In this document: positions 1 through 4,060 of the stretch, piece by piece | Numbering within the stretch: the first letter of the stretch is position 1 | Layout: the number at the start of each line of letters is the position of its first letter | Source: Verrucomicrobiales bacterium | Lineage (GTDB): Bacteria; Verrucomicrobiota; Verrucomicrobiae; Limisphaerales; UBA1100 | Reading direction: 5' to 3' | DNA: 8,175 bases | Assembly (NCBI GenBank): GCA_002721895.1 | Contig: PBLV01000032.1 | Span: 28,131-36,305 of the forward strand | Position numbers and translations under genes: made by a program | Notes under the pieces: model-generated | What the model saw: only the letters and a program-made list of their open reading frames with translations | Told to the model about the DNA's origin: nothing | Database searches by the model: none

Positions 1-629
1 GGGGGATGCGGCGCATTAAACGGAACATAAAGTAAGAGCGGTTTGTTTTTGTCCCGCTTCTGAATGCGCGAAATGGCCTCATCAGCCAACAGGTCGGTCG
101 AATACCCTTCCACATTAACCGGTCTTCCATTGCGGAACCAACCCAACCGGCGTGTGTTGGTGCTGGAATAATAGTTGATACCGCCGCCGTAGAAACCGAA
201 GAACTGATTAAAGCCGCGGGCGTTGGGCCGATAGGCTGCCTCGGCAAATCCAAGATGCCATTTTCCGCTCATCGCCGTCTGGTATCCGGCCTGCCGAAAC
301 AACTCCGGTAAGAACCGTTCTTCTTTGGGCACCCCGCCCGTACGGCCGATAACGCTGAAAATCCCCATGCGCGCCGGTATCCGACCGGTCATCAATGCCG
401 TTCGGGTTGGGCTGCACACCGGGTGAACATAAAATCGATCCAGTTGCACCCCTTCACGGGCCAACTGGTCAATGTGCGGTGTGGCAATTGTACTGCCGTG
501 ATACCCCACCTCATTCCAGCCCATGTCATCGGATACAAAGAGAACAACATGGGGCTTGAGTTGGATACTCCCGCCTGCATGAGATACAGAGGCCAACCCG
601 AAAATAAGAAATCCAATCCATCGAATCAT
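1..629 (-). CDS. Exported sulfatase, formylglycine-dependent (arylsulfatase type), C-terminus outside window
   Basis: The frame stays open from the ATG at 629-627 to the window edge and gives 209 residues of a type I sulfatase, a periplasmic or secreted enzyme that hydrolyses sulfate esters. Residues 1-18 (MIRWIGFLIFGLASVSHA) form a signal peptide. VLFVSDDMGWNEVGYHG (29-45) is the first sulfatase block, with Asp34/Asp35 as expected calcium ligands. VCSPTRTALMTGR (71-83) is the C-x-P-x-R signature; Cys72 (TGC at 416-414) is the residue oxidised to formylglycine. SGKWHLG (121-127) is the usual Lys/His block, and a later stretch has LLYVPFNAPHPP. The family is normally about 450-550 residues, so roughly half is missing. 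The start lies 3 bases after the stop of the upstream thioredoxin-like gene without a good Shine-Dalgarno sequence, so translation is probably coupled. The family is certain; the substrate, perhaps a sulfated polysaccharide, cannot be read from this part. Confidence 0.95.
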   Translation of the reverse strand, partial: MIRWIGFLIFGLASVSHAGGSIQLKPHVVLFVSDDMGWNEVGYHGSTIATPHIDQLAREGVQLDRFYVHPVCSPTRTALMTGRIPARMGIFSVIGRTGGVPKEERFLPELFRQAGYQTAMSGKWHLGFAEAAYRPNARGFNQFFGFYGGGINYYSSTNTRRLGWFRNGRPVNVEGYSTDLLADEAISRIQKRDKNKPLLLYVPFNAPHP

Positions 630-632
630 GGT

Positions 633-1637
633 TTATCGGCGCAACCCCGGCCCGAATCTGCGGCGGCCCTGCCCGTCCGTGTTGGGTGTTTTACTTTCCC
701 AACGTTTGCCGGCCGCCGCGCCTTGGCGCCGGTGTTCCTCATAGGATAGTTCACTTGGCTGATGGCGACCCAGTGCCTCGACCAAGGATTGCTTAAGCTG
801 TTCATCCGAAATGTCCGGGGCAATTTCACGGATCACTTTGCCGTTTAAGCCAAACACCCCCGGCTGGATCACCACCACTCCCGCCTTGGATTGCACCCCT
901 CCAGTCACCTTAAAGGTTTCCGGCTTTGTGACAGGCACATAAAGGGCGCGACCCAAAAAATCGCTCGACCAAGCCAGTGGTTCCAAGCGCTGTTCGATTT
1001 GACTGCGTTGCAATGCATCCCCGAACACCGCCATTAAGGGCAACCGATCTGCAGCAGCCACATTAAGTGCCAATCTGAAATCCGCAAGATAGGGCAGAGG
1101 CACGCGGCCTTTAGGCTTGTTCTTGCCCGGATAGGCCAAGGCTATTACATTCATGGTTTGCGCCATCTTGGCAATCGCCTCCGGTGGCTGTTCATGAATA
1201 CCCCGTCCAGCCTTCCCGCCAAAGGCCCACGCAGGACTACGTCCGGCCCGAATCAATGAGGTGCGGCCATCGGGACTCAATATAGAAAATACCGTGTTTT
1301 GCAGAATACCTCCCGGAGCGAAAATACCCTTGAGCACCTCATTTTCAACGGCATCCTCATAAGTCGCCAACCGGATGCATACGTACTGCTTCGAAGCGGC
1401 AATTACATTTTTGTCGGCCAGGAAACTCCTGTCCATGCTTGTCTTACCCGGTCACCACACCCCGGGCACGTTGTGACACTGTGGTGCGGCAGAAACCAAT
1501 AGTATCGGTTTTCCTGTGCGTTGCGCTTCCGCCAATCCCCCCTTCCAAGTACCGAACCAGACGATTTTCTCAGCCGATGCTGTCACGACCAAGCCGACCA
1601 CAAGAAACGCGCCTAAAAATGTCCCGATATTTTTCAT
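633..1637 (-). CDS. Exported tandem thioredoxin-fold protein, probable selenoprotein with in-frame TGA (Sec62)
   Basis: Read through one TGA (1454-1452), this is a single 334-residue protein ending in TAA at 635-633. Residues 1-22 (MKNIGTFLGAFLVVGLVVTASA) are a signal peptide. Residues 24-50 (WKGGLAEAQRTGKPILLVSA) look like the first helix and strand of a thioredoxin_7-like domain. Then comes PQCHNVPGVW-U-PGKTSMDR, with Cys54 and Sec62. Residues 63-165 continue the fold (ADKNVIAASKQYVCIRLATY, then NTVFSILSPDGRTSLIRAG). Residues from about 192 to 290 look like a second thioredoxin-like unit without Cys. The tail (about 300-334) is basic. The ATG at 1637 is preceded by GGAG at 7 nt. A SECIS-like hairpin follows the TGA. 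A start at the ATG 1436 would lose the signal peptide, the first beta strand and the redox site. Alternatives are a nonsense mutation or a sequencing error of a Cys (TGC/TGT) or Trp codon. A role in envelope thiol redox chemistry is inference; I do not recall a named selenoprotein family for it. Confidence 0.8.
1415..1435 (-). promoter_or_regulatory. Candidate bacterial SECIS hairpin downstream of the in-frame TGA
   Basis: In the transcript the bases after the UGA fold as TGG-A-CAGGA-GTT-TCCTG-G-CCG. There are five perfect upper pairs (C-G, A-U, G-C, G-C, A-U), an A/G mismatch, two more G-C pairs and a final U-G pair. The apical loop is GUU and begins 26 nt after the UGA. Bacterial SECIS models, as I recall them, require a short stem within about 16-37 nt of the UGA and a G in the first two loop positions; both are met. 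The stem lies in coding sequence (codons for M-D-R-S-F-L-A-D) and uses AGG for Arg70, while the next Arg codons in the gene are CGN. The lower stem beyond this is poor. Sequence alone cannot prove that SelB binds. Confidence 0.6.
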
Positions 1638-1803: not shown

Positions 1804-2619
1804 ATGAAAAAGCACATCCTTATCCCCGCCATCCTAGGCGGAATCATGGCGCTCAACCTCGACGCCAAGGCACAGGATCGCCGCCCCGGCGAGGGCGAAC
1901 GCCCCAATCCCAACGCCATCCGCGAGGCGTTTTTGAAAAAATTCGACAAGAACGGCAATGGCCGGCTCGACGAAAACGAACGCCCCTCACGCGAGGCCAT
2001 CCAGCAATTTTTCCGCGAACGGCTTGGCAACAACCGCCCCGGGGGACGACCCGGTGACGGAGGCCCCGAGGGCCGGCCCGGCGGACGCCCGGACGGCAAC
2101 AACAACCCCGGCGGCAGACCCGGCGGACGCCCCGGCGGCAGACCCGGCGGACGCCCCGGCGGCGGTGGATTTCCCGGTGGGCCCGGCGGTGGCTTCCCTG
2201 GCGGACGTCCCGGCTTTCATCCGCCCAACCCCGTCGTCCAAGCCATTGACGCCAACAACGACGGCGAATTGAGCGCTGACGAACTCAAGAACGCCGCCAA
2301 GGCACTCGCCAAACTCGACCGCAACAAGAACGGAAAAATTGACCGCAACGAGTTGCACCCGCAACCGGGTCCCGGCGGCCGCCGCCCCGATTTCAGGCCC
2401 CGTACCGACGGCGGTGATCGCCCCGACTTCCGTCCACGCCCCGGTGGTGATCGTGATCGCCCCGGCTTCCGCCCGCGTCCCGGCGGCGGCGACCGGCCCG
2501 ACTTCCGCCCGCGCCCCGGTGGTGACCGTGATCGCCCCGACGTCCGCCCGCGTCCCGGCGGCGACCGTGACCGCCCCGACGTCCCCCCACGTCGCGGAAA
2601 AGATCGCGACGACGTTTAA
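1804..2619 (+). CDS. Exported EF-hand protein with Gly/Pro/Arg-rich repeats
   Basis: 271 residues. Residues 1-24 (MKKHILIPAILGGIMALNLDAKAQ) form a signal peptide. Three canonical 12-residue EF-hand loops are visible: DKNGNGRLDENE (48-59), DANNDGELSADE (149-160) and DRNKNGKIDRNE (172-183), each with acidic or amide ligands at positions 1, 3 and 5, Gly at 6 and Glu at 12. Between loops 1 and 2 is a flexible GGRP/PGG linker (about 79-138). After residue 193 there are six tandem units of the RPDFRPRPGGDRD type (194-271), with alternating Arg and Asp. Similar exported EF-hand proteins with low-complexity linkers are frequent in Planctomycetes and Verrucomicrobia. Calcium-dependent structural or adhesive roles are inferred. 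The ATG has only a distant AAAGG upstream, so the ribosome site is weak; the signal peptide supports the start. A terminator follows directly, so the gene is probably monocistronic. Confidence 0.9.
   Translation: MKKHILIPAILGGIMALNLDAKAQDRRPGEGERPNPNAIREAFLKKFDKNGNGRLDENERPSREAIQQFFRERLGNNRPGGRPGDGGPEGRPGGRPDGNNNPGGRPGGRPGGRPGGRPGGGGFPGGPGGGFPGGRPGFHPPNPVVQAIDANNDGELSADELKNAAKALAKLDRNKNGKIDRNELHPQPGPGGRRPDFRPRTDGGDRPDFRPRPGGDRDRPGFRPRPGGGDRPDFRPRPGGDRDRPDVRPRPGGDRDRPDVPPRRGKDRDDV
2110..2157 (+). repeat. 24-bp perfect tandem repeat, two copies, inside the EF-hand gene
   Basis: Bases 2110-2133 and 2134-2157 are identical and encode GGRPGGRP twice. The unit itself is two diverged 12-bp halves. 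Such exact copies suggest recent slippage or unequal crossing over, so linker length may vary between strains. Confidence 0.85.
2383..2616 (+). repeat. Six imperfect 36-45 bp tandem units encoding the Arg/Asp-rich C-terminus
   Basis: Successive protein units begin RPDF, RPDF, RPGF, RPDF, RPDV and RPDV (residues 194, 206, 219, 231, 244 and 257). Most continue as RPRPGGDRD; units 1 and 3 are one residue shorter and the last is degenerate (PPRRGKDRDDV). DNA copies differ mostly at third positions, so this array is older than the 24-bp repeat upstream. Confidence 0.85.
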
Positions 2620-2788: not shown

Positions 2789-4060
2789 ATGAAAAATTCA
2801 CGCCGGTCGTTTCTGAAAACTACCACAGGTGCCGCAATTGCGTTGCCGAACATCATTTCCAGTCACGCTTGGGCCAACAAGCCGAGCAATACCATCGGCA
2901 TCGGCTTCGTCGGTGTCGGCAAACAAAGCGGCGGCCATCTCGGGTTCTTTCTCGGCCAAAAGGACTGCCGAGTGGTAAGCCTTGCCGAGGTCGCCCAGGT
3001 ACGTCTGGATAACGGACTCAAGCGTGTCGCCGGCCGGTACGGCAAAGATCACGGGTGCAAGGCCACTCAAGATTTCCGGGAAACTCTTGCTGACAAGCGT
3101 GTTGATGCCGTGGTGATTGGCACCCCCGACCACTGGCACGCCATCCCCTCGATCATGGCGGCGGAGGCGAAGAAGGATGTGTATTGCGAGAAGCCATTAA
3201 CAGTGACGATCCACGCGGCACTGGAAACCCTGAGGGCCGCCCGTAAAAACGATATCGTTTATCAGGTCGGCAGCCAGCAACGCACCGAGTTCGGCGGGCA
3301 TTTCCGCAAAGCGGTGGAATGCATCCGCAACGGACGCGTCGGCAAGGTCGGCAAGATCAAGATCGGCGTGGGTGGCCCGGGCGTGCCCTGTGATCTGCCC
3401 GGCGAGAAGAAACCCGACGGCATCGACTGGGATATGTGGCTCGGCCCCGCACCCGAGCACGCCTTCAACTCCGTGCTCTGTCCCACCAACGTCCACGGCC
3501 ATTTCCCACAATGGCGTCGCTATCGCGAATACGCCGGCGGCAGCCTCAGCGACATGGGCGCACACCATTACGACATCGCTAAGTGGGCGATGGACATCGA
3601 TGAGGATGGCCCTGTTAAAATTATCCCGCCCAAGGATGGCAACAGCGGTTTGAAGATGATCTATGCCGACGGCTTAGAGATCATTCACGAAAGCACCAGG
3701 GATCCATATAACGATGTGGTTTTCTATGGCAGCGAGGGTACACTTTATGTCGACCGGCGCGGCATCACCGCCAACCCTAAGAGCGCGGTTGATTCACCGC
3801 TCGGCGGCAAGGACTGGCGACTGCCGGACATCGGCCGGAGCCATCGGCGGAACTGGATCGATTGCATTCGCAGCCGCAAGCGCCCCGTGGCGGATGTGTC
3901 CTATGGGGCCCACACAAGTATTCTCTGCAGTCTGGCAAACCACGGCTACCAACTTCGGCGTGACCTGAAATGGGACGCAAGAAAATACGAGTTTGTCGGT
4001 GACAAGGAGGCCAACGCCCTGCTGGATCGGCCCGGCCGAGGCGAATGGAAACTGGCTTAG
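2789..4060 (+). CDS. Gfo/Idh/MocA family oxidoreductase with Tat signal
   Basis: 423 residues from the ATG at 2789. MKNSRRSFLKTTTGAAIALP (1-20) is a twin-arginine signal, with likely cleavage after the AWA near residue 29. The Rossmann NAD(P) motif is IGFVGVGKQSGG (38-49), followed by DAVVIGTPDHWHA (106-118) and the family hallmark EKP in VYCEKPLTV (131-139). GGSLSDMGAHHYDIAKWAM (250-268) is the typical substrate-side segment of the C-terminal domain. This class performs NAD(P)-dependent oxidation or reduction of sugars and cyclitols, and Tat-exported members that carry a pre-bound cofactor are very abundant in Planctomycetes and Verrucomicrobia. A longer version from the GTG at 2765 is open but would put eight residues (MFSEHKIF) before the Tat signal, and those codons lie in a repeat-like sequence. 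The gene runs alone, convergent with the lipoprotein gene. Substrate unknown. Confidence 0.95.
   Translation: MKNSRRSFLKTTTGAAIALPNIISSHAWANKPSNTIGIGFVGVGKQSGGHLGFFLGQKDCRVVSLAEVAQVRLDNGLKRVAGRYGKDHGCKATQDFRETLADKRVDAVVIGTPDHWHAIPSIMAAEAKKDVYCEKPLTVTIHAALETLRAARKNDIVYQVGSQQRTEFGGHFRKAVECIRNGRVGKVGKIKIGVGGPGVPCDLPGEKKPDGIDWDMWLGPAPEHAFNSVLCPTNVHGHFPQWRRYREYAGGSLSDMGAHHYDIAKWAMDIDEDGPVKIIPPKDGNSGLKMIYADGLEIIHESTRDPYNDVVFYGSEGTLYVDRRGITANPKSAVDSPLGGKDWRLPDIGRSHRRNWIDCIRSRKRPVADVSYGAHTSILCSLANHGYQLRRDLKWDARKYEFVGDKEANALLDRPGRGEWKLA

Follow-up and report, generated by a model that had tools for sequence, protein, structure and literature searches.

The DsbD C-terminal-type domain (3f9u) and DsbH (2ju5) use a CxxC centre, and the eukaryotic protein ERp44 as well as AGR2 each use a single cysteine (CxxS). 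Among selenoproteins, a selenocysteine (Sec) form is known for the Trx7/PDZ (seleno)protein family NF041199, which has a Thioredoxin_7-like N-terminal domain and the Sec motif CxxU, as given in the available text of a 2026 review (PMC13188914). The VPGUxxT families NF041382 and NF041383 (models of 349 and 287 positions) are thioredoxin-like as well and carry Sec directly after VPG. Here, we analyzed a stretch of 8,175 nucleotides from a Verrucomicrobiales bacterium (assembly GCA_002721895.1, contig PBLV01000032.1, positions 28,131 to 36,305), referred to as the window over its whole length, in which a minus-strand gene contains an in-frame TGA at codon 62. Based on the evidence described below, this UGA almost certainly inserts Sec and the gene encodes a selenoprotein.

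Comparison with the described systems showed that the window protein shares a Thioredoxin_7-like N-terminal domain with NF041199, but has a Cx7U motif with UPGK instead of CxxU and, in the predicted structure, a second thioredoxin fold as opposed to the PDZ in the name of NF041199. The window protein remained below every NCBIfam cut-off; its sole match was NF041199 (14.5 bits versus a cut-off of 300, residues 27–94), a model against which ten other members reached at most 16.5 bits. As in the VPGUxxT families, a VPG is located near the Sec, but here the Sec follows two residues further on (VPG-V-W-U). No match of the window protein to NF041382 or NF041383 (cut-offs 350 and 275) was obtained, and other members scored at best 18.3 and 13 bits, the best NCBIfam score of seven further members being the 18.3 bits to NF041382. 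In contrast to the CxxC centre of the DsbD-type domain and DsbH, the Sec has no cysteine at +3, and in contrast to the single cysteine of ERp44 and AGR2, it is accompanied by a cysteine eight residues upstream. ERp44, the top Foldseek entry, and AGR2, found among the matches, show a structural likeness only, with low TM-scores. An identical motif was not found among the motifs given in the 119-family table of the 2026 review (PMC13188914), whose rows without a motif were covered only where NCBIfam or Pfam models exist. Likewise, none of the new families named in the available text of PMC12013277 or PMC2398784 equals the Cx7U family, and no paper describing it was seen among the open-access papers listed. 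Selenoproteins have been reported from Planctomycetes (PMC4807772), and the detailed list of that study may overlap with the family. Judging by sequence, we conclude that the gene represents a new Cx7U family. It belongs to the thioredoxin-fold selenoproteins, a kind already described, and may be remotely related to the Trx7/PDZ and VPGUxxT groups.

Translation of the minus-strand frame from 1637 to 633 revealed a single internal TGA (1454-1452), no frameshift and a TAA after 334 residues, so that the pieces on both sides of the TGA lie in one frame, as claimed in an earlier interpretation made from the letters alone (the sequence-only reading). The listed open reading frame (ORF) comprises 267 codons and begins at ATG 1436, which is codon 68 of the same frame. 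The residues W61-U62-P63-G64-K65 surround the TGA as described there, and residues 1–22 look, by eye, like the signal peptide it had proposed.

In order to follow the TGA among relatives, we compared 44 loci, consisting of the window and 43 loci from 42 genomes, one of which (G465) has two copies; the duplicates L018, L021, L022 and L029 had been removed beforehand. All 43 sources scanned contain the TGA gene. A TGA at the equivalent of codon 62, with the frame kept, was present at 44/44 loci, including the five first retrieved with the window protein, and the occurrence of the same TGA throughout therefore indicates more than chance. A cysteine eight residues upstream of the TGA was found at 44/44 loci and one 25 residues downstream at 43/44. 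The loci form two clades, clade A with WUPGK (12 loci including the window) and clade B with FUPGY (32 loci). Genome searches with the family profile detected the gene in 3/288 genomes of the phylum of G001, a metagenome-assembled genome (MAG) titled Verrucomicrobiales, in 9/196 genomes of its order, and in 31/97 genomes of the family of another match. Each genome match shows one TGA, including all 31 carriers of the 97-genome sample; for the match in G002, an additional TAG was listed, which is located upstream of its ATG. A Cys form of the gene was not found in any of these three samples. One argument of the sequence-only reading has to be dropped: the C following the UGA carries no information as a Sec context, because a Pro codon (CCN) follows at 44/44 loci.

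Protein database searches provided the Cys forms. All counts given here refer to the best 120 of 258 matches for the window query and the best 120 of 218 for a clade B query. With the window query, 20 proteins were full length by pattern, having Cys (19) or Leu (1) at the Sec column; another 85 have the Met that follows the UGA as their first residue, and the other 15 include several starting near that Met. With the clade B query, there was one full-length protein, with Trp at the Sec column. Taken together with the TGA at all 44 loci, Cys in 19 of the 21 full-length proteins listed corresponds to the expectation that homologs would have Cys or Sec at position 62. In P0072, the protein with Leu, the upstream Cys is retained. 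In P0137, the clade B relative with Trp, the upstream Cys is shifted by two residues; from its sequence, P0137 seems to be a family member in which the Sec centre was lost. Some start-trimmed entries (P0056, P0061, P0064) bear names from Planctomycetota, which suggests that the TGA form is present in this phylum too.

Downstream of the UGA, synonymous sites are frozen over five codons. In same-residue pairs, codon identity at codons +7 to +11 was 100% in clade A and 86–100% in clade B. All other codons within 40 on either side reached at most 0.70 in clade B; in clade A, the isolated codons +5 and +22 were also at 1.00 and the remainder at or below 0.83. At this position, we predicted a bacterial selenocysteine insertion sequence (SECIS) hairpin, the loop of which starts 24–25 nt past the UGA (25 nt in the window). 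It reads CAGGA-GUU-UCCUG in clade A and GAACA-GUU-UGUUC, GAAC-CGUGA-GUUC, AGAAC-GGUCU-GUUCU or GUAC-CGUGA-GUAC in clade B. Of the core pairs, three were present in 29/29 distinct sequences, with both sides varying, and the fourth pair in 22/29; a G at the loop position was found in 29/29, followed by U in 28. Overall, 109/116 core pairs formed, compared to 78.5 (standard deviation 3.7, maximum 93) in 5000 synonymous recodings, and the mean of 3.76 of 4 core pairs per sequence compares to at most 2.72 across 562 slid positions. The double changes largely split clade A from clade B and thus represent few events. The geometry agrees with the bacterial SECIS model in the available text of PMC13188914, except for its minimum free energy limit of -7.5 kcal/mol; the 36-nt fold of the window (-8.3 kcal/mol) is within this limit. 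An Rfam scan of the window gave no match at gathering thresholds. Single-sequence folding energy was discarded as a test of the hairpin, since it did not separate it from shuffles, whereas the comparative tests did.

We further searched the carrier genomes for the Sec machinery. In the 97-genome sample, SelB was found in 30/31 carriers versus 17/66 non-carriers, SelA in 30/31 versus 18/66 and tRNA-Sec in 23/31 versus 16/66 (one-sided Fisher p of 6e-12, 2e-11 and 4e-6, respectively, not corrected for kinship), and no carrier lacked all three together. The 11 carriers outside this sample showed SelA in 11 (one as a fragment), SelB in 8 (4/5 and 4/6) and tRNA-Sec in 8. Across all 42 carriers, this amounts to 41 with SelA, 38 with SelB, 31 with tRNA-Sec and 41 with SelD over the cut-off. 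Only SelD matches over the cut-off were counted, because matches at E 1e-10 were unspecific (10/14 control genomes). The tRNA-Sec model alone was also unspecific (over cut-off in 5/14 controls), and 39 loci were checked with ARAGORN, which assigned a UCA anticodon at 37/39 tRNA loci, at 3/3 further loci and at 5/5 in the first five genomes. The 144/196 tRNA-Sec matches of the order sample were not used; many measure 85–90 nt and are probably tRNA-Ser. In clade B, SelD itself contains one TGA in 29/32 genomes, which serves as an internal positive control of Sec usage. Among the ten clade A genomes, SelD has no internal stop in seven, is a fragment possibly missing the site in two and has a TGA in G499; in the seven with a stop-free SelD, tRNA-Sec, SelD and SelA lie side by side on one contig. 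On contigs G001:C26, G004:C40 and G465:C145, the order is tRNA-Sec, SelD, SelA, and in G004 and G465 SelB lies farther along. Taken together, the conserved TGA, the Cys homologs, the hairpin and the Sec genes in carriers strongly support the earlier proposal of a probable unannotated selenoprotein.

With regard to function, the predicted structure shows tandem thioredoxin folds and thereby bears out the thioredoxin-like domain expected for the joined protein. By structure comparison of the model, the fold resembles relatives of protein disulfide isomerase (PDI), DsbD-type domains and thioredoxins; Foldseek whole-chain matches reach E 6e-5 and are weak by TM-score (0.2–0.3, root-mean-square deviation up to 19 A). 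The Pfam family Thioredoxin_7 (PF13899) matched the window protein with 22 bits (E 1.8e-4), not reaching the gathering score of 27; it also matched 21 of the 62 aligned members with E values of 0.01 or lower. No significant match was obtained when the PDB was searched by sequence using the family profile (best E 0.47). Given Sec insertion, sequence and model point to a thiol-disulfide oxidoreductase as the probable function. SelB with Sec-tRNA(Sec) would read the hairpin and insert Sec at position 62, and the product would be a 334-residue exported protein, not the annotated 267-residue fragment. The mature protein would then be a two-domain, PDI-like thiol oxidoreductase, with Sec62 occupying the place of the nucleophilic Cys in the first thioredoxin-fold domain (W-U-P-G-K, no Cys at +3). 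Sec62 would attack a disulfide, Cys54 would resolve the intermediate via a Se-S bridge, and the second, Cys-free domain may bind the substrate or a partner.

As a different function of the same selenoprotein, a peroxidase could be considered, in which Sec would be peroxidatic and Cys54 or an outside thiol resolving. The centre is not of the classical CxxC type, because there is no Cys at +3 from Sec, and the available part of PMC13188914 gives UxxT as the motif of glutathione peroxidase-like selenoproteins. Nevertheless, we regard a peroxidase as rather unlikely, since the structural matches are to PDI relatives, DsbD-type domains and thioredoxins, and Pfam scans of the window protein and the 62 aligned members revealed no peroxidase family.

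If the UGA were a real stop, the locus would be a pseudogene, the product of an assembly error, or a short leader ORF with translation starting anew at ATG 1436. Current annotations agree with this: P0002, the closest entry in the protein database (from a Verrucomicrobiales MAG), is trimmed to 267 aa, as the sequence-only reading had anticipated for gene callers, differs at a single residue and is named ‘hypothetical protein’; the 85 trimmed homologs start at the equivalent Met. However, TGA and frame are kept at every locus, the 20 full-length homologs listed for the window query preserve the upstream half, joined without a break to the remainder of the protein, and an assembly error would not recur across 42 genomes. 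The downstream part is conserved among homologs as well and not decaying, again in line with the sequence-only reading. An ATG at codon +6 is present in 12/12 clade A loci but in 0/32 clade B loci (five have an ATG at +4), and re-initiation at this ATG is therefore not a family trait. Altogether, a real stop appears highly improbable.

Decoding of UGA as Trp or Gly by an altered code, or read-through without selenium, would fit the Trp of P0137 but can practically be dismissed, considering that there is only one TGA per genome match, that the column is Cys in 19/20 full-length homologs listed for the window query, that carriers have SelA, SelB and tRNA-Sec more often than other genomes, that the SelA and SelB frames found contain no internal stops, and that a tRNA-Trp with CCA anticodon occurs in contig pieces of three carriers (G001, G002, G004).

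Several observations weigh against Sec insertion or its proposed role. The 21 full-length proteins listed include the one with Leu and the one with Trp at the Sec site. The limit of -7.5 kcal/mol is reached by only 13/44 loci (11/12 clade A loci, among them the window, and 2/32 clade B loci), the best 36-nt fold differs from the hairpin in 5/44 (L032, L046, L048, L050, L057), and single-sequence hairpin stability is not unusual for the composition (z -1.07 to 0.34). Of the 42 carriers, 11 yielded no tRNA-Sec, four no SelB and one no SelA, SelD was below the cut-off in one, and the SelA match of G005 is a fragment; these gaps may be due to draft assemblies and stricter filters. For the genome of the window itself, we infer the Sec machinery from its relatives. 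Furthermore, the active-site loop is poorly modelled (predicted local distance difference test, pLDDT, of 64–66).

Table 1. Features of the probable selenoprotein locus in window coordinates
Feature	Positions	Strand	Basis or details
Selenoprotein gene, 334 codons + TAA	633..1637	-	Start ATG 1637-1635; codon 62 (TGA) decoded as Sec
Probable N-terminal signal peptide, residues 1-22	1572..1637	-	Read by eye; N-terminus of model low-confidence
Thioredoxin-fold domain at the N-terminus (residues 23-173), containing Cys54 and Sec62	1119..1571	-	Pfam scan, model
Cys54 codon, candidate resolving Cys (Cx7U), 8 residues before Sec	1476..1478	-	Cys in 44/44 loci
Sec-UGA codon (Sec62)	1452..1454	-	TGA in 44/44 loci; Cys 19, Leu 1, Trp 1 in 21 full-length homologs listed
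Predicted bacterial SECIS hairpin	1416..1434	-	5-bp stem 1431-1427/1423-1419; loop GUU 1426-1424; lower pairs 1434-1433/1417-1416
Codons +7 to +11 after UGA, synonymous sites frozen	1419..1433	-	Codon identity in same-residue pairs
Cys87 codon, conserved Cys, strand after active-site helix	1377..1379	-	Cys in 43/44 loci, Thr in 1
Second thioredoxin-fold domain at the C-terminus (residues 178-293), Cys-free in the window protein	759..1106	-	Model, Cys positions
Sulfatase gene in the same direction, 3 bp after the selenoprotein gene	3..629	-	Cut by window edge; contains CSPTR
EF-hand protein gene, divergently transcribed	1804..2619	+	BLAST cluster in clade A loci

The neighbourhood of the selenoprotein gene is partly shared within clade A (Table 1). 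Based on BLAST clusters, a sulfatase gene is next or next-but-one in 8/11 clade A loci, in one of them after the second gene copy; the CSPTR of the window sulfatase is presumably the Cys-type sulfatase motif. On contig G465:C275 (L064), two tandem copies of the TGA gene, unlike in sequence, directly precede the sulfatase gene. The divergent EF-hand gene precedes the selenoprotein gene in 8/11 clade A loci, and two of the remaining three have almost no upstream DNA. In clade B, the C-terminus of the protein itself shows a DxDxDG calcium-binding-like motif in 30/32 loci, the two exceptions running to the contig end, and EF-hands were found in 2/62 aligned homologs. A link to calcium and the breakdown of sulfated polysaccharides is a lead, no more. 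Further upstream, the window encodes a GFO/IDH/MocA-type oxidoreductase (2792-4060), whose SRRSFLK start resembles a twin-arginine signal; genes of its BLAST cluster are located near the selenoprotein gene in 14 loci.

It is quite possible, though we propose it tentatively, that these genes form a new family, widespread in Verrucomicrobiota and probably Planctomycetota, of exported tandem-thioredoxin oxidoreductases with a Cx7U selenylsulfide centre. If true, this would add one more bacterial selenoprotein family, in a phylum without mention in the available text of the 2026 review (PMC13188914), and would explain many start-trimmed ‘hypothetical proteins’ that miss the export signal and the active site. 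Its SECIS is well supported by the comparison between loci, with a geometry common to both clades and differing stem letters. Start-trimmed protein entries also exist for the named bacteria Oceaniferula spumae, Roseibacillus persicicus and Verrucomicrobiaceae bacterium R5-34, so that the claim is probably testable in culture. Finally, because SelD has no internal TGA in 7/10 clade A genomes, the exported selenoprotein may be among the main clients keeping the Sec machinery in the closest relatives of the window.
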